A stretch of 64,000 bases of DNA from Agathobacter sp. (GTDB lineage Bacteria > Bacillota > Clostridia > Lachnospirales > Lachnospiraceae). The position numbers and the translations under genes were made by a program. Positions within the stretch are counted from its first letter, which is position 1; every line of letters starts with the position of its first letter. The DNA is taken from NCBI GenBank assembly GCA_017409825.1, contig JAFQRZ010000015.1, positions 1-64,000 on the forward strand, given 5' to 3'. Below, one piece after another: positions 7,777 through 59,705 of this stretch. Under the pieces are notes generated by a model. That model did no database searches, was not told the origin of the DNA, and saw only the letters and a program-made list of their open reading frames with translations.

Positions 7777-9066
7777 ATGGTTTCGTCTGAAGAAAAAAAG
7801 AGACTTATTGAGGATATGATAAAAATGTCGTATCAAATAATTGAACCTGTAGAGTTACAACGTCAATTACATAATTTTTTACTAAGAGATACCAATGAGG
7901 GTAAATTATATAAGTATCGGTCGTTTGATAAAGATGGCTATTCTCTTAAGAATCTCCAAGATGAAACATTACATTGTTCTAAAGCAGATGCATTTAATGA
8001 TCCATTTGATTGTAAAATTGGTGTAACGTTTCATTCAATATATGCAGCAAAATATGATACGGAATTTGATGTTGTATGTGGGATTTTAGAAAAGTATCTT
8101 GAGGTATTACATAATGATACTCAAATAGAGGATTGCAGTGTTGATGAGCAACGAGTAATTAATAAACTTCTATCAAGCGATATATTAAACGATTTTTTAA
8201 TGAATAATGATGATAAAGCAGAGACAGAGGAAGAGTTGGCACTACTTTTGAAAAATAATTATTTTGTTGTTGTCGAGTTGATGCAGATTGTTCTTTCAGA
8301 TGAGGCATTTAGGGATTCCTTGGGTATTTGTGTAGATATGTTGCCTAGAATGTTGGAAAGGATATCTCCAGAGGGAATGTTGCTGATTTCGAGTGAGGAT
8401 GCAAGCATTGAAGATTACGCGCGTGCGAATGGAGTTGTTGAAGATACGGACGAAGTTGGACTTACGATGCTTTTAAGTCAGAAATTGTATCCTGAGCATA
8501 ATGGTGCAGTAGAGGATGTACAAAGATTGTTAGATGAAATGGATAGTAAATTGGCGGAGAAAATGAAGAATCTTTTTCTTGTTGGATGCTTGTGTACTAG
8601 TTATAAAAACAGGCTTATGTGGTCACATTATGCAGATAGCCACAAGGGATTTTGCATAGAGTATGATTTTAGTGAACCTGAAGACGAGGTACTATCAAAA
8701 ATACCATTACCGGTATTTTATTCTGAAAATAGACCACTGGTTCCTTGGAAAGCAGTTATAGATAATTCAGTAGAAAACATGGAAGAAGCATATGCTGAGA
8801 TAATGATGGGATTATTGACTAAAGATAAGGAATGGGAATACGAGAATGAGTGGCGTATTCTTATCGGAGCAACAGAAGATTCAGAATTTAAAATGCCTAG
8901 AGTATCATGCATTTACTTAGGGGCATTTATTGAAAAAGAAAATAGAGATAAGATTATTGCTATAGCAAAGGAACGGAATATTCCGGTAAAGCAAATGAAA
9001 GTAGACCGTGGTGCGTATGACTTGCATGCGGAAGATGTAATGTTGTTTACAAGGGAAGATGTTTAA
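7777..9066 (+). CDS. DUF2971 family protein
   Basis: A 429-residue protein matching the DUF2971 pattern: an N-terminal YKYRSFDKDG plus HCSKADAFNDPFD (about residues 45-80), and a C-terminal MWSHYADSHKGFCIEYDF (about 280-297) followed by EWEYENEWRIL. The biochemical role of the family is unknown; it is common in accessory and defence regions. The middle (about 90-260) is acidic and helical and looks like an insertion relative to short family members. It is co-directional with the helicase 49 bases upstream. Its stop codon region overlaps by 4 bases the end of the convergent reverse transcriptase gene, so no independent terminator separates the two cassettes. Confidence 0.8.
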   Translation: MVSSEEKKRLIEDMIKMSYQIIEPVELQRQLHNFLLRDTNEGKLYKYRSFDKDGYSLKNLQDETLHCSKADAFNDPFDCKIGVTFHSIYAAKYDTEFDVVCGILEKYLEVLHNDTQIEDCSVDEQRVINKLLSSDILNDFLMNNDDKAETEEELALLLKNNYFVVVELMQIVLSDEAFRDSLGICVDMLPRMLERISPEGMLLISSEDASIEDYARANGVVEDTDEVGLTMLLSQKLYPEHNGAVEDVQRLLDEMDSKLAEKMKNLFLVGCLCTSYKNRLMWSHYADSHKGFCIEYDFSEPEDEVLSKIPLPVFYSENRPLVPWKAVIDNSVENMEEAYAEIMMGLLTKDKEWEYENEWRILIGATEDSEFKMPRVSCIYLGAFIEKENRDKIIAIAKERNIPVKQMKVDRGAYDLHAEDVMLFTREDV

Positions 9067-10037
9067 GAGACATCAAAGCTTGCGTCTCGAACAATTTTGT
9101 AAATGCTTTGAAACTTATTGGGCTCACTTTGATGCGCAGCAATAATAAGCCCTTGTAGTCGGGCCTTTGACTGGGCATCTTGTTGATTGTATTTGAAATG
9201 TTTCCATTCTTTAATTATATTTAAACTTAGAGAATTTCTGATTTTTAAGTTGCCATTAGAGGATATAATGGCACCGGTAATAAGCTTTGGATAATTTTTA
9301 GTGTAATATTTTACCTTATTGCGTGAAAGGCGGTATAAGTTTTTTGAGATAACTTTATATATTACTTCTTTCTGACTATGTGAAATTACATGTTGTGAAG
9401 AGAATGTGATATCATCAACATATACGGACATTATAAGGCTATTTTTGTCGCAAAATTCCTGCAAAGTATCAAACATTTTGTGGTTCACCAAATATGATAA
9501 TATTTGGCTTGCAGGCGAACCAGAGATTAAGTGATTTGATGTTTTGATTTTCTTAGAGATTAAAAATTCATTTACCGAGTCAGCGTCTTCAATATTGCAT
9601 TTTGATAAATCTACAGTCAATAAATTAGTTAAAATACAAGCAATATCAGGAGATGTTTTTAATGACTCTGTGAAAAAATTGTATACTGTGTTGCGTGAGA
9701 TACATGGGAAAAAAGATGATAAATCAATTTTGAATACATATTTATTACCGCTATGTAGTTTTGCGTTTTCGATGTATGATTTTCCCTTTACACCAGAAAA
9801 AATGTTTTCAGGAACAATGATTTTATTCAATTCATTTTTAATATGTCGCTGAATAATTTTTAGCTCTTCTGAAGGAACTTCAATTAAACGTGGCTTGGGA
9901 TTAGTCTGGATGTAAGGAGAGATGTGCTTAGAAACATATCGTTGCTGTAAGAATCGCTTGTCGTGAATATGTAATAAATTTAATAAATATTTCTTGGAAG
10001 TTTGCTTATATAGATTTGAGTTGATAGGGTTAATCAT
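9063..10037 (-). CDS. Retron-type reverse transcriptase
   Basis: A 324-residue reverse transcriptase of typical retron length. Retron hallmarks are visible: NAKLH at 91-95 (the NAxxH motif), the catalytic FKIDLSSFF with D105, the active site YVDD at 206-209, and ITG at 253-255 in place of the usual VTG. It lacks the maturase and endonuclease domains of group II introns. It would make msDNA from the structured RNA at 10355-10597 on the same strand. AGGAGGAATCC precedes the start. Order on the minus strand: promoter, structured RNA, small membrane protein, reverse transcriptase. The 3' end overlaps the DUF2971 gene tail. In retron defence the effector is usually an adjacent gene, here most likely the 63-aa membrane protein. 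Confidence 0.88.
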   Translation of the reverse strand: MINPINSNLYKQTSKKYLLNLLHIHDKRFLQQRYVSKHISPYIQTNPKPRLIEVPSEELKIIQRHIKNELNKIIVPENIFSGVKGKSYIENAKLHSGNKYVFKIDLSSFFPCISRNTVYNFFTESLKTSPDIACILTNLLTVDLSKCNIEDADSVNEFLISKKIKTSNHLISGSPASQILSYLVNHKMFDTLQEFCDKNSLIMSVYVDDITFSSQHVISHSQKEVIYKVISKNLYRLSRNKVKYYTKNYPKLITGAIISSNGNLKIRNSLSLNIIKEWKHFKYNQQDAQSKARLQGLIIAAHQSEPNKFQSIYKIVRDASFDVS

Positions 10038-32305: not shown

Positions 32306-32378
32306 TTAGACACTGCAGAGCACATAGTCATGTGTCGTGGTCGAAATAATCAAATAAGTAAAATTATTCATATAGTAA

Positions 32379-32484
32379 GAAAAGGGAATCGCCTACTATA
32401 TTCTACGAAACCTTTAGTAACGTAACGAGGACGCTAAGAGCGAAAGTCGTGTTTCGTATAATATAGTAGGCGATTACACTTTTC
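32379..32484 (-). repeat. Family-B hairpin element, short form (B1)
   Basis: The arms GGGAATCGCCTACTATATT (32384-32402) and AATATAGTAGGCGATT (32460-32475) enclose an inner TACGAAAC/GTTTCGTA stem and the family-B core motif, on the minus strand TCGTTACGTTACTAAA (32413-32428) plus GACTTTCGCTC. It lacks the second half of the core (the TTAAGTAACGACGG part) found in the other three copies. No inverted copy of the neighbouring gene was seen here. Confidence 0.75.
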
Positions 32485-32508
32485 GTGGTATTGAAACAAA
32501 ATTAGTAT

Positions 32509-32557
32509 TTGACAATTTTTTCACAAGGCACTATACTATGCTTTGTGAACGCGTTCA
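32509..32557 (+). promoter_or_regulatory. Promoter and palindromic operator of the TetR gene
   Basis: TTGACA (32509-32514), 17 bases, TATACT (32532-32537). The perfect palindrome TGAACGCGTTCA (32546-32557) overlaps the expected transcript start. This is the classical layout for TetR autorepression. Confidence 0.85.
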
Positions 32558-36878: not shown

Positions 36879-36940
36879 CATCCTTCTCCTTTTCTACTAG
36901 CATGCACATATAAAACCAATCCTATACAGGCAAAATCATT

Positions 36941-37123
36941 CATCCAGTTGATTTTTTTTATCATCAACAACAGCTTCTTCGTTAACCTAAAAAATCCCCG
37001 TCTCATAAATGTAATTTGGAAGCCTTATGCCAATACAGCGACAAATTATATTTATGAGACGGGGATTATATAGTCTAATGTAAATTATCTGTTGTTGATA
37101 ATCTTAGTCAATTCAACTGGATC
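36941..37123 (-). repeat. Family-A hairpin at the purC 3' end, with inverted purC-tail copy (A1)
   Basis: Core hairpin 36993-37067: 25-base arms (one G-U pair) around a 23-base conserved loop (37019-37041). Outside the core, 36942-36991 is a diverged inverted copy of the purC end at 37082-37123: ATCCAGTTGA and ATCAACAACAG are shared. Thus one arm consists of the last purC codons and the other of their inverted duplicate. On the purC strand it lies 17 bases after the stop codon. Confidence 0.82.
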
Positions 37124-37768
37124 AACGATTTTGCCATCTTTGTAAACACGCATGTTACCAGAAGCGATTTCGTCGATAAGGATAACTTCGTCATTGTTGT
37201 AACCAAATTCGAATTTGATATCCCAAAGATCAAGACCAAGTGTCTTTAAGTCATCTGCAACGATTTTTGTAATTGCAAGAGTCTGTTCTTTTAAGCTTTC
37301 GAACATAGCTGGTGACATAACACCAAGAGCTACAAGGCCTTCACCTGTTACGAGTGGATCGCCAAGAGCATCATCTTTGAATGTACATTCTACGTAACCA
37401 CCTTCTAAAACAGTACCATCTTCGATATATTTTCCATATCTACGGATGAAGCTTCCTGTTGCAACGAGACGGCAGATTACTTCAAGACCATGTCCGAATA
37501 CAGTTGCTGGAAGAACTTCCATAGTAGCGTTTTCTACATCAGCGCTAACATAATGAGTTTTGATTCCAGCTTCTTTTAATAATTCAAAGTAGTGGATAGA
37601 TGTGATAAGGTTTGCTTTACCAATACCTTCGATAGTTAAGCCAACACTGTTTTCACCTGGATCGAATACGCCATCTTTTCCAGTACAGTCATCTTTAAAT
37701 TTGAGCAATACATTGCCATTTTCGAGTTTGTAAACGTCTTTTGTTTTACCTGTGTAAATTTTTTCCAT
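37085..37768 (-). CDS. purC: Phosphoribosylaminoimidazole-succinocarboxamide synthase
   Basis: SAICAR synthetase joins aspartate to CAIR with ATP in de novo purine synthesis. At 227 residues it is the usual bacterial length. Diagnostic stretches are [11 protein letters not shown] (near the start), [30 protein letters not shown] (about 93-109) and the C-terminal [11 protein letters not shown]...[12 protein letters not shown]. The start at ATG 37768 follows AAGGAGA; a TTG-started frame three codons longer overlaps it. It stands apart from other pur genes. Its last codons form one arm of the A1 hairpin. Confidence 0.96.
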
Positions 37769-38007
37769 CTTTATCAATCTCCTTATGTATAAGATGCGTT
37801 AGAAATAACATAGATACTTTACCACTTTTTTTTTCAAAGTAAAATATTTTTTTGCGATTTTTTTAGTTTTTTTTTGAAAGTTTTTTATTAACTATACTAA
37901 TAACTGTGTGTACTAAAAAAATGTTGAAAATCGCAAGAATGTGCGTGCATATTGAAAAAAAGAGGTGTATAATATTACCAAATAATTTACATTGGAGGAA
38001 GTTTTAC

Positions 38008-48628: not shown

Positions 48629-48639
48629 AAAGATAAGCT

Positions 48640-48712
48640 CTTACATGACTGACGGATAACGCGGGCGACCGCGGGGGAGTGTGAGAGAATATGAAGCCGA
48701 CCGTCTGGGCAA
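48640..48712 (+). ncRNA. ZTP riboswitch (pfl motif)
   Basis: The aptamer shows the conserved TGACTGACGG (48647-48656) at the 5' part and the hallmark CCGACC-GTCTGGGCA (48698-48711) at the 3' part, with a short CGCGG/CCGCG-type helix between. ZTP riboswitches sense the purine intermediate ZMP/ZTP, which accumulates when formyl-folate is scarce, and usually turn on folate and one-carbon genes. It lies upstream of pflB, the arrangement after which the motif was named. Confidence 0.9.
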
Positions 48713-48744
48713 CTTAGTAACACGCTGAGTTGCCCTTTCTTTTT
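48707..48744 (+). terminator. Riboswitch expression-platform terminator
   Basis: GGGCAACT (48707-48714) pairs with AGTTGCCC (48728-48735), followed by TTTCTTTTT. The left arm overlaps the last aptamer bases (GGGCA), so ligand binding would prevent the terminator. Confidence 0.88.
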
Positions 48745-48835: not shown

Positions 48836-51067
48836 ATGGAACACAAGAATTGGAATGGATTCAAAAGTGGTGTATGGCAGGATGAAATCAATGTACGTGA
48901 CTTCATTCAGCAGAATTACAAGGTGTATGAAGGCGATGACAGCTTTTTAGCAGGAGCTACAGAACGTACGAATGATATGATGAAAAAGGTAAACAGCCTT
49001 TTTAAATTAGAAAGACAGTATGGTGGTGTATTAGATATTGATACGACTACAGTATCTTCTCTTACCGCTTATGCACCAGGATATATTGATAAAGAAAACG
49101 AACTTATCGTTGGCTTACAGACCAACCGTCCACTCAAGAGAGGGGTAAATCCTTTCGGTGGAATCCGTATGGCACGTCAGGCTTGTGCTGCTTATGGTTA
49201 CAAGCTTAGCGATACAATTGAGGATCAGTTCCGTTTTAGAACCACACACAACGACGGTGTATTCCGTGCATATACAGAAGAAATGCGTAAGGCTCGTACC
49301 TGTCACGTTATTACAGGTCTTCCAGATGCTTACGGCCGTGGTCGTATCATCGGTGACTACCGTCGTGTGGCGCTTTATGGTATTGACAAACTTATCGAAG
49401 AAAAGAAGAAAGATAAAAAAGCCCTTGAAAAAGGAAACTTCTCTGCAGAAGAAGTTCGTTTATCAGAAGAACTCTTCCAGCAGATTACCTTCCTTACATA
49501 TATGAAAGAAATGGCTACGATGTATGGATATGACATCAGTCATCCAGCGGCAAATGCACGTGAGGCTATCCAGTGGACCTATTTTGCATACCTTGCATCT
49601 ATCAAGGAGCAGAATGGTGCTGCAATGTCCCTTGGTCGTGTGGCTACTTTCTTTGATATCTATATTGAAAGAGATATCGTAAATGGTGTTCTTACAGAGG
49701 AAACAGCCCAGGAGCTTATGGACGACTTCGTAATCAAGCTTCGTATGGCACGTCACCTTCGTACACCAGAATACAACGAACTTTTCGGTGGAGACCCAAT
49801 GTGGATTACCGAAGCAGTTGGTGGTATGGGCGAAGACGGTAGAACACTTGTTACAAAGAACTCATTCCGTATTTTGAATACACTTTATACACTTGGTTCG
49901 TCGCCAGAACCAAACCTTACCGTGCTTTGGTCTACACAGCTTCCAGAAGGTTTCAAGAAGTTCTGTGCTAAGGTTTCTAAGGATACTGACTCTATCCAGT
50001 ATGAAAACGACGATTTGATGCGTCCAATTTATGGGGATGATTACGCAATTGCTTGTTGTGTATCTGCTATGAAGATTGGTAAGCAGATGCAGTTCTTTGG
50101 AGCTCGTTGTAATTTACCTAAGCTTTTACTTATCGCATTAAATGGTGGTTACGATACTTCAAGCCAGATTCATATTGGACCACAGATGCCAGTTATGGAT
50201 GTGGAAAAATTAGATTACGAAGCGGTAATGGAACGTTACAATATTTACATCGACTGGTTATCAAACCTTTATGTAAATACCATGAACGTAATCCACTATA
50301 TGCATGATAAATATGCTTACGAAAAAACACAGATGGCTTTACATGATACACAGGTACATCGTTTCATGGCATTCGGTGTTGCAGGTCTGTCTGTAGTAGC
50401 TGACTCACTTAGCGCTATCAAATATGCAAATGTAAAACCAATCAAAGATGAAAATGGATTTATTACAGAGTTTGAAACAACTGGAGAATTCCCTAAATTC
50501 GGTAATGATGATGACCGTGTAGACTTAATCGCAAAAGATATGACACACAAGGTTATTACAGAGCTTCGTAAGACTCCAACTTATCGTAATGCAGAGCATA
50601 CACTTTCTGTACTTACAATTACATCGAATGTAATGTATGGTAAGAACACAGCTTCAACTCCAGATGGACGTAAAGCTGGCGAAGCATTTGCTCCAGGAGC
50701 AAACCCAATGCACAACCGTGAAGAAAACGGTGCTATCGCATCGTTAAGCTCTGTGGCTAAGATTAGCTATGATGATTGCCGCGATGGTGTATCCAATACA
50801 TTTTCTATTACACCTCAGGCATTAGGTAAGACAGATGAAGAAAGAGTTGACAATTTGGTAGCAATCTTAGATGGTTACTTCTCTAAGAATGCACATCACA
50901 TTAACGTAAATGTAATGAACCGCGAAACATTGGAAAAAGCTTATGAAGATCCTGAAAGCTATCCAAACCTTACAATTCGTGTTTCTGGTTATGCCGTAAA
51001 CTTCAACAAGCTTTCGAAAGCACAGCAGCGCGAAGTTATCAGCAGAACCTTCCATGATCGTATGTAA
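48836..51067 (+). CDS. pflB: Formate C-acetyltransferase (pyruvate formate-lyase)
   Basis: A 743-residue glycyl-radical enzyme splitting pyruvate and CoA into acetyl-CoA and formate in anaerobic fermentation. The two adjacent catalytic cysteines (ACCVSAM, about 404-410) and the C-terminal glycyl-radical loop RVSGYAVNF (Gly near 717) are intact. Usual length. AGGAGGAAAAT precedes the ATG. It is controlled by the ZTP riboswitch upstream, linking formate production to one-carbon demand. The activating enzyme gene is not next to it. The final codons NRTFHDRM-stop region form one arm of a long 3' hairpin (B2). Confidence 0.97.
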
Positions 51068-51336
51068 TCATGAGTTAATGTAATAATTAGAATTCTCTAA
51101 ATACTACGAAAAGGGGACTCCGCATATATTTAAATTTGGACACGTTTCCACTCATAGCCCCCTCGTTGCGTTACTAAATTCGCATCCCACAAGAACTGTG
51201 GTCTGCTTATTAAGTAACGACGGGGTGCTAATGGTCCAATGTTAAATATATACGGAGTCCCCTTTTCTCACTTTTGGACGTACTTAATTATTACATTAAC
51301 GACGTGATTACCTATCATGGAAGGTTCTTGATAGAG
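51043..51336 (+). repeat. Family-B hairpin with inverted copy of the pflB tail (B2)
   Basis: Starting inside the last pflB codons, arm 51043-51131 pairs with 51244-51336. The matching blocks are AACCTTCCATGAT, GTAATCA, TTAATGTAATAATTA and AAAAGGGGACTCCG. The core has TCGTTGCGTTACTAAATT (51163-51180), TTAAGTAACGACGG (51210-51223), and TGGACAC/GGTCCA. The distal arm is an inverted duplicate of the gene end including the stop codon region. No gene lies in 51068-51569. Confidence 0.85.
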
Positions 51337-51612
51337 GACAGTTGCCTTCTTCCATGGTGCAGGAAATTTTGAAGTAGAAAGACTTTTGGGAAAGTAAGAA
51401 ATGGACCAGTCTATATATTAAATGAACACCATTAGCGAGCCGTCGTTACTTAATGAGCGACGACTCTTCGTCGCAAATTTAGTAACGCAACGAGCTCGCT
51501 ATGAGCGAAAGTCGTGTGTGAATTTAATATATAGACTGGTCCATTTCGTAGTGTTTAGAAAAGTTGATTCTACTTCGAAATTTCCTGCTCCATGGTAAGA
51601 ACCAACTGTCGG
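51328..51612 (-). repeat. Family-B hairpin with inverted copy of the chemoreceptor tail (B3)
   Basis: On the minus strand the end of the chemoreceptor gene (51570-51612) and its flank pair with 51330-51418: GACAGTTG, CAGGAAATTT, GAAGTAGAA and GGACCAGTCTATATATTAAA are shared. The core (51420-51525) carries AATTTAGTAACGCAACGA (51476-51493, complement of the B2 core) and CCGTCGTTACTTAA (51440-51453). It abuts B2 directly, so both convergent genes end in giant hairpins. Confidence 0.85.
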
Positions 51613-53048
51613 ATGTTTTCGGTATCTGTTTCCATTTGTTCGACGTTGCTGCCATAGATTTTGATGGAGTCGGCAATGTCGTTAATAGAGGACTGGTTCT
51701 TTTCGGAATAATCTGCCATAGTAGAAACGCTGGTTTGAATCATGTCAAAACTACTAGAAAGATTGTTCACGCTGGTATCGTGTTCTTCGATGCTTTCGTA
51801 CAAAGTGGTAAAGCTTGTAAGCAGCTCGTTAAATCCGTGGTTGAGTGAGTCGATGCTTGCCAGAGAAGAATCGACATTTTCTGTGCTTTCGGTCATCTGC
51901 TGACGAGTTTTATACACTTGGGATTCCATATTGGTTACGATTTGTTCTACGAGGTTAGAGCATTTGTTGCTATCTACGGCAAGCTGCTGTACCTTCTCAG
52001 CAACCACTGCAAAACCTGCACCTGCAGCTCCGGCTCTAGCAGCTTCAATAGAGGCATTTAGAGAAAGCATATTGGTACTGGAGGCAATGGATTTTAACTG
52101 TTCTACAACGGCAACGATTTCTTTCATCTGTTCCTGGATTCCGTCGAATACTTCATTGGTAGCATAAGCAGAATCCTTGATAGAAAGAATCTGAGTAGAC
52201 ATAGTGCTGATGTTGCTTTCGTTCTCTTTTAATACATATTCAAAATGCTGGATATTTTCCAATAAATCATGAATCTGGTTTCGGCATACCGTGATATGTT
52301 CGAGTGCTTCATCACAGGTGCTCATAGTGTCGCTTACGCTAACGGTAATGTTGCTGGAGTCATCAATCAATTCGCTTGTGCGAAGCTCTACCTGCTGATT
52401 AGCGTTGTTGATGTCGCTGATACGCGTCTGCGTTGTTTCGAAATTTTTATTTAATTCTGTATTGATAATTGCGAGCTGTTCAATTACTTTTTCCATTTCT
52501 TTGGTACGTGCACGACTTTCCAAAATAAAGGAGCGGCCTCGTGCAACAACGAAGGAAAACAGAACACCTGCCAGGTTAAATAAAATGACACACATGATAA
52601 ATTGGCCGATAGGACCAATTTTATGAGGGGCACAGATGCATTGGATTACGAGCAGGATATTTGCTACACCTAACTGAATCTGTGGATACTGTGGGCGAAG
52701 AAAGAGACCAGACATACCCATTGCTGCCAGATATAAAATAAAGTCATCGCCAAAGGAGCTTCCACTGAAAATGGATACGATGGAAATAACTATCAGCAGT
52801 GCAACAGAAACCACAAGGTTTCTCGTGTCGGTAGGAATTTTTACCTTATTCATAACAAAGAGTGCAATACAATACGCAGCGAGGCACAAGCCGATTGCAA
52901 TTGAACCGATAATCTCGCTTGACAGGACATTTTTAATCAAAAATGCTGCTGATACGACTAAGGTAATCGTATTCATAATTTTGTAAATGCTTTCTTTGGT
53001 GATGTTTTTGACGATTTCTGTCATAGAAGCTTTCTTTTTCTCTTTCAT
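51570..53048 (-). CDS. Chemoreceptor-type signalling protein with six-helix membrane domain
   Basis: A 492-residue protein with about six N-terminal membrane helices (residues about 18-170, minimal extracellular loops) instead of the usual two-helix periplasmic sensor, then a coiled-coil methyl-accepting signalling domain whose hairpin tip is [20 protein letters not shown] (near 315) followed by GFAVVAEKVQQLA. It would sense membrane or cytoplasmic conditions and signal to CheA. Starts after GAGGGATATT. Its final codons (VLTMEQEISK) are part of the B3 hairpin. Confidence 0.9.
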   Translation of the reverse strand: MKEKKKASMTEIVKNITKESIYKIMNTITLVVSAAFLIKNVLSSEIIGSIAIGLCLAAYCIALFVMNKVKIPTDTRNLVVSVALLIVISIVSIFSGSSFGDDFILYLAAMGMSGLFLRPQYPQIQLGVANILLVIQCICAPHKIGPIGQFIMCVILFNLAGVLFSFVVARGRSFILESRARTKEMEKVIEQLAIINTELNKNFETTQTRISDINNANQQVELRTSELIDDSSNITVSVSDTMSTCDEALEHITVCRNQIHDLLENIQHFEYVLKENESNISTMSTQILSIKDSAYATNEVFDGIQEQMKEIVAVVEQLKSIASSTNMLSLNASIEAARAGAAGAGFAVVAEKVQQLAVDSNKCSNLVEQIVTNMESQVYKTRQQMTESTENVDSSLASIDSLNHGFNELLTSFTTLYESIEEHDTSVNNLSSSFDMIQTSVSTMADYSEKNQSSINDIADSIKIYGSNVEQMETDTENIRQLVLTMEQEISK

Positions 53049-54705: not shown

Positions 54706-54711
54706 CGTATA

Positions 54712-54790
54712 AAAAGGAATATTCATAAAAAGGAATATAATGGGAAGCCTTATGCCAATACAGCGACCATTATATTCCTTTTTACATATA
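54712..54790 (-). repeat. Family-A hairpin at the protease gene 3' end (A2)
   Basis: Perfect 17-bp arms AAAAAGGAATATAATGG (54727-54743) and CCATTATATTCCTTTTT (54767-54783) hold the 23-base family-A loop (54744-54766), identical to that of A1. The right arm overlaps the stop codon of the minus-strand protease gene. An extra partial copy of the left arm (AAAAAGGAATATTC) precedes it at about 54711. Confidence 0.85.
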
Positions 54791-56410
54791 GTGGATTTTA
54801 TATTTAAATACAATTTCAAAATAGTTAAGAATTTCGCTTAGGGGTACGGCAACCGTTTCTCTGTAGCCATCGTATTCCGTATAGCCACGAATCATTCCGA
54901 CAAGTCTGCCATAACCATCAAAGAGTGCGGAGCCAGAGGAACCCGCGACAGGGGTCATGGAGATGATGGTCTCGTTTAAATCTTTATAGTGGTTCCAGTC
55001 ACGAACCGCTTCTTTTTCAATGATATGTCCAGTGCTGGTCTGCCAGATTTTTCCTTTATTATCAATACAATTATATCCAATAGTGATGCCACAATTGTCC
55101 GCAAGGCTATCCCAATAGCGCTTGTTGATATGCACCGTGCGAAGCTTGCGTATATATTCGCGTGCGAGAGAGACATTACTCCCCTTGTCATCAATCGGAA
55201 TACGGATAAAGGCAATGTCCCGCTCTGGAGATGCAGCGACGACAGCACCGTTACAGGAAAGTGCATCAAAAAAGGTCACATCTACGGTAAGATCTTTACT
55301 TATGACATGCTCATTCGTGGCAATAGTAACGAATGCATCATTTATTTCGATGATGAAGCCACTGCCAAAGGTGGATAAAGCATCATTCTCGATATTTACG
55401 ATACATGGCAGCATAATATTTTGGATAAATTCAATGTTTTCGGTGTCGTAGTATCCGCTGTCATACGGGTTTTTCGCACCAATAATTGCATTGGTAGTCA
55501 AATTGATTGCGTGCGAGTTTAAAAGCTCTTGTAGGGCATCCTGCGAGCTCACATGGACATTTGCGGTTTTTGTTGCAGTTAATCCATAATCATCTGTAGC
55601 AGAAAAGCTTACGGGATAAGTGCCAGCAGTTGATGGTTTTAACTGCGAGGTATCGATTTCGATATCATCAACGTCCATATCGTCTGTAATAAAATCCCAC
55701 ACATCAATGTATTCGCTAAAGTCTATTTGTTCGCCAAAGGCGACGTAGAAATCATTTGGAATCTCTAGAACGGGTGGTTCTTCAACCTTTAGATTAAGTG
55801 TGATTTCGCTTGTGTTATGGAAGATATCGCTCACACTAATCGTCAGTGTATAAATGCCACCATAAGCAAACTGGAATTCCTCGGCCTCCATAGGAATGCC
55901 TTTGCGATAGGCTTCGCGCATATCGATGGTTTCTTCCTCAGGTAAACCGGTATAGAATTTTGTAGAAGAAATTTTGGTGAATTTCATACTTTCGATATCA
56001 CTATAGTCCTTCACATTTAATCCGAGACTTTTGACAGAAATGGTTTCGCCTGGCACGATAGTTTTATTTTTGACATCACAGCTTACGACAGGTGCAGTAG
56101 AATCTGTGACATTTACATACGAAGTTAATTTCTGAAACCCATGGTAGATGTATACGGGGTAGCGTCCGACTTTAGTGTGTTTTACAGCGGAAGCATCAAC
56201 ATGAGAGAGTGGGACGCACCAACGTGCTCCATCCAAATAGTAGTCGGGTTTGGTGGAGGCTTGGGTCCCGATTTCCAAGTGGCTCTCTTTAATAGAAAGC
56301 TCTACTTTGAAAAATGGTGACTTCAGAAAGAAAATAAGACCGATGCCAAGCAGGGTAAGCATTCCTATAATGGCAAGGAATAGTTGGAATTTCTTCTTTG
56401 TTTTTGGCAT
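54782..56410 (-). CDS. Membrane-anchored trypsin-like serine protease with immunoglobulin-like region
   Basis: A 542-residue exported protein. The N-terminal anchor LFLAIIGMLTLLGIGLIFFL (about 10-29) follows a lysine-rich start. Residues about 30-290 are beta-rich, with cadherin/Ig-like phrasing (VTDSTAPVVSC; YPVSFSATDDYGLTATKTA). A C-terminal trypsin-like domain has His in TIATNEHVIS (about 374-383), Asp in PERDIAFIRI (about 405-414) and Ser in AGSSGSALFDGYGRLVGM (about 497-514). This is a DegP/HtrA-like triad without a PDZ domain. It may process surface proteins. It starts after AAAGGAGGATACC. A giant palindrome lies upstream. Confidence 0.87.
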   Translation of the reverse strand: MPKTKKKFQLFLAIIGMLTLLGIGLIFFLKSPFFKVELSIKESHLEIGTQASTKPDYYLDGARWCVPLSHVDASAVKHTKVGRYPVYIYHGFQKLTSYVNVTDSTAPVVSCDVKNKTIVPGETISVKSLGLNVKDYSDIESMKFTKISSTKFYTGLPEEETIDMREAYRKGIPMEAEEFQFAYGGIYTLTISVSDIFHNTSEITLNLKVEEPPVLEIPNDFYVAFGEQIDFSEYIDVWDFITDDMDVDDIEIDTSQLKPSTAGTYPVSFSATDDYGLTATKTANVHVSSQDALQELLNSHAINLTTNAIIGAKNPYDSGYYDTENIEFIQNIMLPCIVNIENDALSTFGSGFIIEINDAFVTIATNEHVISKDLTVDVTFFDALSCNGAVVAASPERDIAFIRIPIDDKGSNVSLAREYIRKLRTVHINKRYWDSLADNCGITIGYNCIDNKGKIWQTSTGHIIEKEAVRDWNHYKDLNETIISMTPVAGSSGSALFDGYGRLVGMIRGYTEYDGYRETVAVPLSEILNYFEIVFKYKIHYM

Positions 56411-56477: not shown

Positions 56478-57066
56478 TTCTTCAATTCGTGAAGTTCATT
56501 TTAAGTAAATTCCGATTTACCGTCGCCTTTTCTTAGAATTCGAAATAAATATGCCGCTGTATCTTCTAGAGAATTTCTCTCGGTTAAGTAAAACGCGTAT
56601 TTTTAAGAAACACACGGCTGGCTTCTATGATTTATTCTGTCTGTCAAAAGTTTTACACTCTGCACCACTTTGTGCGTGTGCATAAAGACACCATTGCGAG
56701 AATTTCGTCGTTTCTCTTATGTGGGCAGGATTATAAAATGTCATGAGCCATGCAAACTGTTCGACGCACCGTTCTTGTGCGGAGTTTTTTGCATGGCTCA
56801 TGTAATATCACCTTTATAAGACTGCCCACATTAGAGAAACAGAAATTTGAGAACGGTGTCTGTTGCACAACGTACAAAGTGGTGCAGAGTGTAAAAGCTA
56901 TGCCAGACAAAAAACTTAAGCCAGCCGTGTGTTTCAAGAAAATAAACGCGTTTCCCTTAAAGGTTCGAAATTCTCTAGAAGATACAGCGACATATTTTAT
57001 TTCAAAAATAACATAAGGCGACGGCAAATCAGAATTTACTTAAAATGAACTTCACGAATTGAAGAA
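56478..57066. repeat. Giant ~590-bp palindromic element (family C, copy 2)
   Basis: Almost the whole stretch is an imperfect inverted repeat. The outermost arms TTCTTCAATTCGTGAAGTTC (56478-56497) match their complement at 57047-57066. Inner paired blocks include TTAAGTAAATTC, CTGTATCTTCTAGAGAATTT, TTTACACTCTGCACCACTTT, and the centre TGAGCCATGCAAA / TTTGCATGGCTCA with GCACCGTTCTTGTGC near 56765-56780. A second copy is cut by the window start. It fills the region between the divergent protease and EIIC-like genes. No protein frame is credible. Confidence 0.88.
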
Positions 57067-59220: not shown

Positions 59221-59245
59221 AGAATTTAAACAATAAGTTAGTTTT

Positions 59246-59414
59246 TCTAAATACTACGAAAAGTGGCTTATATATATTTAAAGTATGGACACGACTTTCG
59301 CTCATAGCGTCCTCGTTGCGTTACTAAATTCGTGCTGATTTGATAATCATCACTCATTAAGTAACGACGGGCCGCTAATGGTCCATTTTTAAATATATAT
59401 AAGCCGCTTTTCCT
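59246..59414 (+). repeat. Family-B hairpin after the degV-type gene (B4)
   Basis: The box TCTAAATACTACGAAAAG (59246-59263) is identical to B2 (51096-51113). The arms AAAAGTGGCTTATATATATT and its partner (59390-59413) have one G-U pair. The core has TCGTTGCGTTACTAAATT (59313-59330), TTAAGTAACGACGG (59357-59370) and GCTAATGGTCCA. An inverted copy of the degV tail is not evident; the neighbouring A3 element begins just after. Confidence 0.85.
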
Positions 59415-59434
59415 ATGCAAAGAAATATCCATCG

Positions 59435-59705
59435 ATAGAAATTCAGATGAAGTCTATTACAGCGAAATCCATGTCTAAAATAACTTGTGCATTAAAATTT
59501 AGTTTTATTCGTAAAGTAAGAACATCCCCCTTTATATACATTCATTTAGAAGCCTTACGCCAGTACAGCGATAAATGAATGTATATAAAGGGGGATGTTC
59601 GTATTATTTAGAAAAACTAAATCTTAATGCACTAAATTATTTTATTTGTCATGGATTTCGCTGTGAAGCTCCTGTAAAGACTTCACTTCTGAATTTCCAT
59701 GTTCT
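59435..59705 (-). repeat. Family-A hairpin with inverted copy of the carB tail (A3)
   Basis: Inner perfect 29-bp arms (59520-59548 and 59572-59600) surround the 23-base loop (59549-59571; two substitutions versus A1 and A2). Outside them, 59438-59519 is a diverged inverted copy of the carB 3' end at 59601-59697: GAAATTCAGA, GAAGTCT, ACAGCGAAATCCATG and GTGCATTAA are shared, with a small deletion. The copy includes about 50 coding bases and the stop region. Confidence 0.87.

Follow-up and report, generated by a model that had tools for sequence, protein, structure and literature searches.

Why should the interval between two convergent genes fold into two giant hairpins whose far arms repeat, in inverted order, the ends of those same genes? 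The question is raised by the window, that is, the whole 64,000-nucleotide stretch of Agathobacter sp. DNA analysed here (contig JAFQRZ010000015.1, positions 1 to 64,000, forward strand), where pflB meets a chemoreceptor gene. Bidirectional intrinsic (Rho-independent) terminators lie at stop codons and combine an A-rich stretch, a GC-rich stem and a T-rich stretch; to our knowledge, their origin, turnover and perfect pairing are little understood. The features of the locus are as follows.

48635..48717 (+): ZMP/ZTP riboswitch (RF01750) upstream of pflB; cmscan 62.5 bits, above the gathering score
48836..51067 (+): pflB, formate C-acetyltransferase; TIGR01255, 1171 bits
51037..51092 (+): hairpin 1, gene-side outer arm: the final ~31 nt of pflB, stop included, and 25 nt beyond it
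51093..51107 (+): hairpin 1, gene-side A-rich zone and module edge, from the consensus over long-loop copies
51108..51137 (+): hairpin 1, 5' half of the inner stem, locus-specific sequence
51138..51237 (+): hairpin 1, conserved long loop (core) common to the family
51238..51267 (+): hairpin 1, 3' half of the inner stem, ending in CCCCTTTTC
51268..51282 (+): hairpin 1, distal T-rich zone
51283..51333 (-): hairpin 1, outer arm on the distal side, repeating the pflB end in inverted order with exact blocks of 15/15 and 16/16
51337..51391 (+): hairpin 2, outer arm on the distal side, repeating the chemoreceptor gene end in inverted order
51395..51429 (+): hairpin 2, half of the inner stem adjoining the copy
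51430..51515 (-): hairpin 2, conserved long loop, in the orientation opposite to hairpin 1
51516..51550 (-): hairpin 2, gene-side half of the inner stem
51568..51610 (-): hairpin 2, outer arm on the gene side, formed by the final ~41 nt of the chemoreceptor gene
51570..53048 (-): methyl-accepting chemotaxis protein gene, convergent to pflB, with its stop at 51570; PF00015, E=1.3e-28

Hairpin 1 (51037-51333) and hairpin 2 (51337-51610) belong to one repeat family; they have a conserved core in common, as an earlier note made from the sequence alone had observed. The exact blocks of hairpin 1 pair 51044-51058 with 51314-51328 and 51074-51089 with 51285-51300; in hairpin 2, complementarity reaches 84% over 43 nt (51337-51379 with 51568-51610) and 91% over 35 nt (51395-51429 with 51516-51550). 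RNA folding, which the note had called for, gave z-scores of -13.2 and -16.5 for hairpins 1 and 2, with equal stability in no shuffled sequence, and hairpin 1 folded as DNA gave z = -15.7. A seeded hairpin scan scored the two at 53.5 and 44.2, and three shuffles of the window contained no hairpin scoring 26 or more. A simple terminator scan (loops of up to 8 nt) missed the main stem of hairpin 1 and returned a weak hit inside its loop.

The note's central claim, that the arms are inverted ends of the adjoining genes, proved to be real and general. When the self-match of the arms was confined to coding bases, pflB scored 16 and the chemoreceptor gene 30, against a 99% between-loci level of 13. 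The extents of the copies had to be narrowed: the pflB copy, placed by the note at 51244-51336, occupies ~51283-51333, and the chemoreceptor copy, placed at 51330-51418, occupies ~51337-51391; each of the note's stretches also takes in part of the inner stem, a different segment.

For pflB, comparison with its relatives bears on the direction of copying. The gene is 80-85% identical to 80 kept named relatives, labelled nearly all as Clostridia, Oscillospiraceae or similar, with two Mailhella; its near-full-length matches are only ~57-60% identical within its own genus, and the best elsewhere in the order is 66%. On these similarities the gene looks horizontally acquired. None of the 80 relatives (0/80) has a hairpin over the stop, and at three positions where the window's pflB carries a minority base among 76 comparable relatives, the distal copy agrees with it too. 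Both results favour copying from the gene to the distal arm.

The pair is not isolated. Dozens of giant hairpins occupy the usual place of the short transcription stop signal in the window's genome (G000), and the family, with its terminator-like stems, was also found in one relative (G007). Two loop forms occur, a long one of ~100 nt and a short one of 22 nt; the latter is present in two of the five genomes searched. Each module runs from a short T-rich zone through a stem that is GC-rich and then TATA, the loop and the returning stem to a second T-rich zone. One stem reads GAAAAGGGGACTCCG...CCCCTTTTC; the distal T-rich zone has the long-loop consensus TTACTTTTTGGA, and its T fraction over 18 nt is 0.44 in the long-loop and 0.39 in the short-loop form. 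Our set of 70 elements comprises the 46 long-loop copies found, less six dropped because their distal stem was not readable, and 30 of 46 short-loop matches. Where there was room on both flanks, 54 of 59 elements stand at a stop codon in a single (sense) orientation, and from this sequence and position we infer a terminator function. Outer arms are in most cases specific to their locus, as inner stems often are; outer-arm identity between loci falls to about 0.25-0.3. In the long-loop family, sharing between loci fades by ~16-28 nt outside the stem, and gapped identity to the gene copy is 0.80-0.88 at 21-40 nt; an ungapped comparison gave no peak in either family, and the shared edge is clear in the long-loop family only. 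The zone adjoining the stem pairs more poorly than the copied zone farther out. Further copies in the window are:

32323..32540 (-): long-loop copy L032, with a shortened core
36929..37135 (-): short-loop hairpin L280, whose arms copy the end of the gene at 37085-37777, including coding bases; strict coding test score 24
54708..54802 (-): short-loop hairpin L282, at the end of the gene at 54782-56410; outer-arm copy not above chance (own score 5.7, rank 24)
59243..59415 (+): long-loop hairpin L033, following a DegV-family gene whose end it does not copy (own score 4.7, rank 29)
59459..59664 (-): short-loop hairpin L284, with arms that copy the gene end of the carbamoyl-phosphate synthase large subunit; strict coding test score 17

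The genome-wide arm alignment suggested in the note puts the similarity well above chance. Over 58 non-redundant elements the mean score of an arm with its own gene was 19.40, compared with 6.65 between loci, and none of 20,000 permutations was as high (highest permuted mean, 9.06); 35 of the 58 exceed the 99% level and 23 fall below it. A strict test on coding bases only, applied to the 49 of these elements that had a gene in sense orientation and sufficient distal sequence, gave a mean of 12.31 versus 7.81 (0/10,000 permutations as high). It was passed at the 99% level by 17 elements, which include both window hairpins and two orthologous pairs and so are not all independent, and failed by 32. 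With the bases 3' of the stop alone, 10 of 19 sufficiently long elements exceed the 99% level. A looser reading, in which 29 of 34 high-scoring arms enter the gene by 10 nt or more, overstates coding copies because the alignments run on.

Hairpins that include a coding tail go with the family. They were found at 7 of 385 genes sampled in G000 (five of the seven inside the window), at 2 of 83 in G007 and at 1 of 527 in the Clostridia loci. Genes in related genomes that lack the family have none (0/118 in G016 and 0/118 in samples of seven other genomes of the genus), and none appeared once downstream sequence had been shuffled.

Comparison of orthologous gene ends in G000 and G007 supports an exchange of terminators, and is less favourable to copying of coding bases. 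Of 18 gene ends that carry an element, 10 have an orthologue followed by an ordinary short terminator in the other genome (this label, like 'third family' below, was assigned by eye). At those ten sites a coding-tail copy is present in none of the orthologues and, by the strict test, in one of the ten element-bearing counterparts, the copied part lying mostly 3' of the stop codon. The orthologue's longest perfect stem was not found near the element (at least four mismatches) at five sites, and at the remaining five it is short or ambiguous. At L021, 27 post-stop bases are identical in both genomes, their inverted copy exists in G000 only, and the copied gene side in G007 has no tail-containing stem; at L029 G000 has a strong copy (21.4) and G007 a weak one (14.0). 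At these two loci G007 is ~80-90% identical, too distant to resolve one event. At L014/L030, G007 has a plain hairpin at the stop (19-nt arms, 18 paired) and the G000 arms enclose a double element, which may therefore sit inside the loop of an older hairpin. Replacement of inner stem and loop by those of another module was also seen. A third, related family carries terminal inverted repeats of ~40 bp, and one of its sites is empty in G007; shared termini are present in this family and in double elements and absent from most gene-end elements, and no direct duplication was identified at the two empty sites inspected.

Once formed, distal arms are mostly inherited rather than renewed. In eight orthologous hairpins the distal arms are more alike between genomes (0.68) than each is to its own gene arm (0.59, 0.61), and 92 distal-only changes that make or break pairs stand against 21 compensatory columns, a count in which the inner stem of L031/L168 was read out of register. 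The suggestion in the note that gene tails are continuously re-copied finds no support in these figures. Nor is its proposed purpose, keeping a double-stranded RNA 3' end, supported: on the sense strand of elements above the 99% level, G.U and A.C mismatches number 41 and 34 (34 and 24 in coding parts) in a recount with a different boundary rule. The earlier count was 29 and 28, in which the inner-stem boundary was misplaced in L032 and the first hairpin of L020, and which omits L014, L015, L026, L027, the first hairpin of L018 and the second of L019. Since G.U is not clearly in excess, copying at the level of DNA fits better than selection on RNA.

Taken as backward copies of gene ends, the far arms suggest DNA synthesis folded back on itself. 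Template switching or snap-back synthesis, as put forward in the earlier note, is the best available reading of arm copies so far above chance, although the single strict coding copy among the ten ordinary-terminator sites weighs against it. We lean, by a narrow balance of probability, towards a terminator module that can be exchanged, and from whose edge the gene end was copied by snap-back synthesis. Such a module would take the place of an ordinary intrinsic terminator, at the stop codon and in one orientation, and fold on itself so that its outer 3' edge came to lie opposite the gene end. A polymerase would then extend that edge along the gene strand, and the new strand would rejoin the chromosome. 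The outcome would be an inverted copy of post-stop bases and, for roughly one testable element in three, of coding bases too. Gene arm and copy would diverge later, with the occasional co-changes that are seen, and modules might exchange inner stems and loops. No enzyme for the copying was identified in G000 or G007. Reverse transcriptases gave two matches in G000; a retron-like one at 9063-10037 (padloc RT_VI) was considered as a link and set aside, as it lies 41 kb away and G007 has no RVT_1 match in an assembly that is 71% complete. No sign of a phage origin emerged either, a 20-base core pattern having no exact match in viral contigs; attC-like cassette sites were among the readings considered. 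It is possible, though we hold it doubtful, that the elements form a new class of mobile element, a self-propagating terminator that displaces those of the host, its 5' edge joining the gene end and its free 3' edge snapping back to copy it. If so, every insertion would acquire an inverted repeat of its own, derived from the gene and in some cases reaching into the last codons. Conceivably the copy was begun instead by self-primed reverse transcription, with the terminated transcript's 3' end as primer.

Snap-back copying by an inserted module has to be weighed against a replication template switch at a resident hairpin, in which the nascent strand extends the palindrome into the gene with no insertion step. 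Template-switch mutation is reportedly documented also for E. coli quasipalindromes. The 21 co-changed columns and the variation in length and presence of the copy between loci favour such a switch, and template switching at hairpins is documented (Monttinen and Loytynoja, 2022; PMC8794818). We nevertheless think it unlikely, as genes of related genomes, which must also end in terminators, lack coding-tail hairpins, and as pairing is poorer next to the stem than in the copied zone outside. It would be improbable, in our estimation, that a MITE-like transposable palindrome inserted into the loops of resident stem-loops, leaving the old stem as outer arms: the plain hairpin of G007 at L014/L030 and the third family with its empty site speak for such insertion, but the five sites at which the orthologue stem was not found near the element, and the gene side at L021, which in G007 has no tail-containing stem, speak against it.

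Selection on RNA, in which mRNA 3' ends would be protected or regulated by a long duplex and the distal arm would have gained its pairing with the gene end stepwise, would agree with the fixed sense orientation and the highly stable predicted folds. Besides the mismatch counts, it has to contend with exact 15- and 16-nt blocks shared with a gene that looks acquired, and transcription that stopped at the inner stem would not reach the distal arm; we rate such selection as quite improbable. Fold-back chimeras from amplification or assembly come to mind because G000 is a draft of 36 contigs with many family copies at contig ends. Most elements are contig-internal, however, at stop codons and in fixed orientation, their arms are diverged rather than perfect, and the second assembly has orthologous hairpins with shared and private changes, so that an artefact seems most improbable.

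How does the family compare with known systems? Like intrinsic terminators, the modules stand at stop codons with the same layout, a GC-rich stem and then a T-rich tract following the gene, and are exchangeable with ordinary terminators at orthologous genes; unlike them, they have a conserved loop of 22 or ~100 nt rather than a short one, kinship between loci, and outer arms that copy the gene end. They resemble REPINs, BOX/RUP elements and MITEs in being multi-copy, intergenic, hairpin-forming and non-protein-coding. In the small palindromic repeat families known to us, copies share their arms, whereas here the outer arms are usually locus-specific and not conserved between copies. Mobilisation of the REPIN/RAYT type was discounted, the Y1 (RAYT-type) transposase PF01797 having no match in G000 or G007; it is present in 7 of 24 genus genomes searched.

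The hairpins described in PMC8794818, where template switches create and maintain hairpins, likewise owe perfect stems and co-changes in both arms to reverse-complement copying, and here too the DNA next to the element recurs in the distal arm as its reverse complement. That work concerns RNA genes and single events, whereas the module described here recurs at dozens of gene ends and in many cases carries a gene-end copy. Coding palindromes in nematomorph mitochondria (PMC6649704) and maintained inverted repeats in Caenorhabditis (PMC1803023) also contain coding sequence and seem actively maintained; they are neither terminators nor a gene-end repeat family. Searches of an open-access library yielded no description of repeat hairpins with inverted gene-end copies, which does not imply absence from print.

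These findings provide a pair of related genomes in which terminators have been swapped for a repeat module, and in which the gene-end copy serves as a built-in record of backward copying. Both the turnover of terminators and snap-back synthesis at the ends of genes thereby become testable by sequencing, and the elements show a route by which coding DNA can be duplicated in inverted order beside its own gene.

Two hairpins occupy the region between pflB and a convergent chemoreceptor gene. Their positions, and those of other features discussed here, are:

9063-10037, minus strand, reverse transcriptase resembling retron type VI (padloc RT_VI, E 6.5e-69)
48836-51067, plus strand, pflB
51037-51333, hairpin 1, at the pflB end
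51337-51610, hairpin 2, at the chemoreceptor gene end
51570-53048, minus strand, chemoreceptor gene (PF00015), convergent to pflB
56479-57066, giant palindrome of a third repeat family, about 590 bp, with terminal inverted repeats of about 40 bp

The existence of two giant hairpins, claimed in an earlier note, was confirmed. The pflB end matches its copy in two inverted blocks without mismatch, one of 15 and one of 16 bases, the chemoreceptor end and its copy form a 43-nt arm pair, and RNA folding across the region showed both hairpins to be far stabler than shuffled sequences (z -13.2 and -16.5; hairpin 1 folded as DNA, z -15.7).

A search of the region against its own genome (G000; 2.80 Mb, 36 contigs) returned 64 match rows in both orientations, or about 30 hairpins when merged by eye. 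Side-by-side reading revealed a single layout common to the long-loop copies. Outermost is a locus-specific arm; inside it lies a conserved zone whose two sides are unequal (...TCTAAATACTACGAAA on the gene side, TTTCTTACTTTTTGG... on the distal side), followed by a stem of about 22 bp, usually locus-dependent in sequence and still almost perfectly paired, and innermost by a loop, again conserved, of about 100 nt. We refer to everything inside the outer arms as the module. A second kind has the identical plan with a 22-nt loop, CGCTGTAYTRGCRTAAGGYTTC. Allowing at most two mismatches, this loop matched 31 times in G000 (three matches falling in the window), 15 times in a relative, G007, and never in the three other genomes searched; a reversed control pattern had no match in any of the five. 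The long loop was present in 5 of the 62 genus genomes searched, namely G000, G007, G051 (three matches), G049 (one) and G017 (two weak).

The distal arms had also been proposed to be inverted copies of the adjoining gene ends, and this held beyond chance over many loci. We compared 70 elements (40 long-loop with both stems and 30 short-loop loci), scoring each gene-side arm against its own distal arm and those of other loci; removal of near-identical rows left 58. The mean own score was 19.40 versus 6.65 between loci, and none of 20,000 permutations reached the observed mean (highest permuted mean 9.06); 42 of the 58 exceeded the 95% between-loci level and 35 the 99% level. Since whole arms mix post-stop and coding bases, the two parts were tested separately. 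Coding bases alone (last 50 nt, n=49) gave a mean of 12.31 versus 7.81, a value that none of 10,000 permutations equalled; 21 elements exceeded the 95% level and 17, both window hairpins among them, the 99% level. Two orthologous pairs (L280/L305, L012/L166) are counted in the 17, so not all of these are independent. Without the stop codon and the three preceding bases, 14 of 49 were still over 99%. Post-stop bases alone, in the 19 elements that offered 12 nt or more, exceeded 95% in 14 and 99% in 10. Roughly two thirds of the 49 elements had no coding copy beyond chance in the coding-bases test, and some had no copy at all, such as one after a DegV-family gene at 59243.

pflB bears on which sequence was the template. 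The window gene shares 80-85% identity with 80 kept relatives, almost all of them labelled Clostridia, Oscillospiraceae or similar; the genome of the window and its closest neighbours may be missing from this set. Near-full-length matches in its own genus reach about 57-60%, and by this comparison the gene looks acquired. A second pflB in the genome (contig C29) is 61% identical. Close behind pflB, 14 Clostridia relatives carry, by eye, one particular gene, presumably that for the activase, where the window has hairpins. A hairpin spanning the stop was found in 0 of the 80 pflB loci (78 with at least 200 nt downstream), the pflB end matched by the copy is conserved among those relatives, and at three positions where the window gene carries a minority base, shared by 11, 17 and 12 of 76 loci, the copy follows the window gene. 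These observations make the gene the likelier template.

The sense stop codon lay at the module in 58 of 70 elements, with the stem starting anywhere between 4 nt upstream and 62 nt downstream of the last stop base. For the 59 elements flanked on each side by 400 nt or more the figure was 54, and 28 had an antisense stop on the far side. At L293, L296, L299, L301 and L303 the paired arms extend into both coding tails of convergent genes, so one gene may owe its C-terminus to an inverted copy of the facing gene's end. Hairpins including a coding tail were found at 7 of 385 genes in the G000 control sample (the window plus 20 stretches of 20 kb), five of the seven lying in the window, itself chosen for its hairpins; at 2 of 83 in G007; and at 1 of 527 across 80 Clostridia loci. 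There were none at 118 genes in G016 or at 118 in seven other same-genus samples, nor in any gene set once downstream sequence was shuffled. Other long hairpins (score at least 26) numbered six in 400 kb of G000 outside the window, two each in G016 and G012, and eight in the Clostridia loci. An unrelated long GC-rich inverted repeat lies beside a gene in G016, another genus member (L198:12019-12289).

Eighteen element-bearing gene ends were set against their orthologues in the other genome (G000 versus G007). Judged by eye, the orthologue had an ordinary short terminator in ten cases (L163, L019, L169, L011, L189b, L159, L157, L160, L158 and L188, the last counted despite poor tail alignment), an apparent third palindromic family in two and a different version of the element in six. 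A hairpin scan at the ten found nothing at a score of at least 20. Short loop replaces long loop at L029 and at L164 and L189a, two sides of one locus; gene 37085 (37085-37777) has the short-loop type alike in both genomes; and a compact loop-less hairpin is the counterpart of L010 and L021. At L021 the 27 post-stop bases are identical in both genomes and the inverted copy is present only in G000; the L029 arms score 21.4 in G000 and 14.0 in G007. A strict test (last 55 coding bases against downstream, 60 shuffles) was positive at 3 of the 18 element-bearing ends (L029, 37085 and L169) and in 2 of the 18 orthologues (37085 and L164, both themselves element-bearing). This comparison, suggested in the earlier note, clearly indicates that modules stand in for terminators (10/18), and is only consistent with a coding copy (1/10 with the element versus 0/10 without, among the ordinary-terminator pairs). 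Several unrelated genes of G007 (L171, L311, L321, L324) are followed by much the same short hairpin, terminator-like in form (around GTCGCAAA...TTTGTCGAC / TTTGCGAC), which may be another repeat terminator.

A requirement for duplex RNA as the cause of arm pairing would predict more G.U than A.C on the sense strand. Outer arms had 29 G.U and 28 A.C, inner stems 7 and 5; in 35 high-scoring elements the numbers were 41 and 34 (coding parts 34 and 24). G.U is thus not clearly preferred, and copying of DNA is the simpler explanation. Gene tails had alternatively been suggested to be continuously re-copied. Across eight hairpins orthologous between G000 and G007, draft assemblies too diverged for catching single events, identity was 0.81 for gene arms and 0.68 for distal arms; gene and distal arms were 0.59 and 0.61 alike within a genome and 0.575 and 0.544 across. 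Both arms had changed with pairing kept at 21 columns, and pair-making or pair-breaking changes were distal-only at 92 and gene-only at 29. The copies thus appear old in most of the eight and drifting apart; co-changes occur but do not dominate, which argues against continuous re-copying. Inner stems, each paired at no fewer than 20 of 26 positions, had at most 16 of 26 in common across genomes at four of the eight (carB 7/26) and 20 at a fifth, with the L031/L168 stem out of register in this count. It seems that the inner module is exchanged whole.

Template-switch copying reportedly operates in bacteria, from quasipalindrome work in E. coli. In the long-loop family, loci resemble one another strongly over the first 12 nt or so outside the stem and hardly more than background past about 28 nt, and gapped within-locus identity is 0.80-0.88 at 21-40 nt (21 elements scoring at least 16). 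Likeness between loci fades where the gene copy begins, so the long-loop copy starts about where the module ends. Short-loop elements have a weak zone of between-loci likeness (0.33-0.41 close to the stem), and their within-locus identity is highest at 17-32 nt. Without gaps, neither family shows a peak. The module-edge data favour snap-back synthesis, one of the routes proposed earlier, which we infer would start at the module edge, perhaps during insertion; no responsible enzyme was found. At least once the element may have entered an existing stem-loop, since the G007 orthologue of the L014/L030 site has a plain hairpin at the stop with 19-nt arms, 18 paired.

Matching flanks suggest that contig ends pair into single insertions (L014+L030, L015+L028, L022+L026). 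G000 contigs C1, C6, C7, C8, C9, C15, C16, C23 and C33 have ends that lie within these hairpins or beside them, so the palindromes probably break the assembly. The third family occupies at least about 25 sites, whole or partial, in G000 and about as many in G007, many of them at contig ends; the G007 site orthologous to 56479-57066 is empty.

Template-switch mutation supplies the copying principle (PMC8794818). No description of exchangeable terminator modules that each carry their own gene-derived arm was found in the open-access literature searched. The nearest known repeats are REPINs, BOX and MITEs, whose arms are generally common to copies, whereas the outer arms here are locus-specific and often gene-derived.
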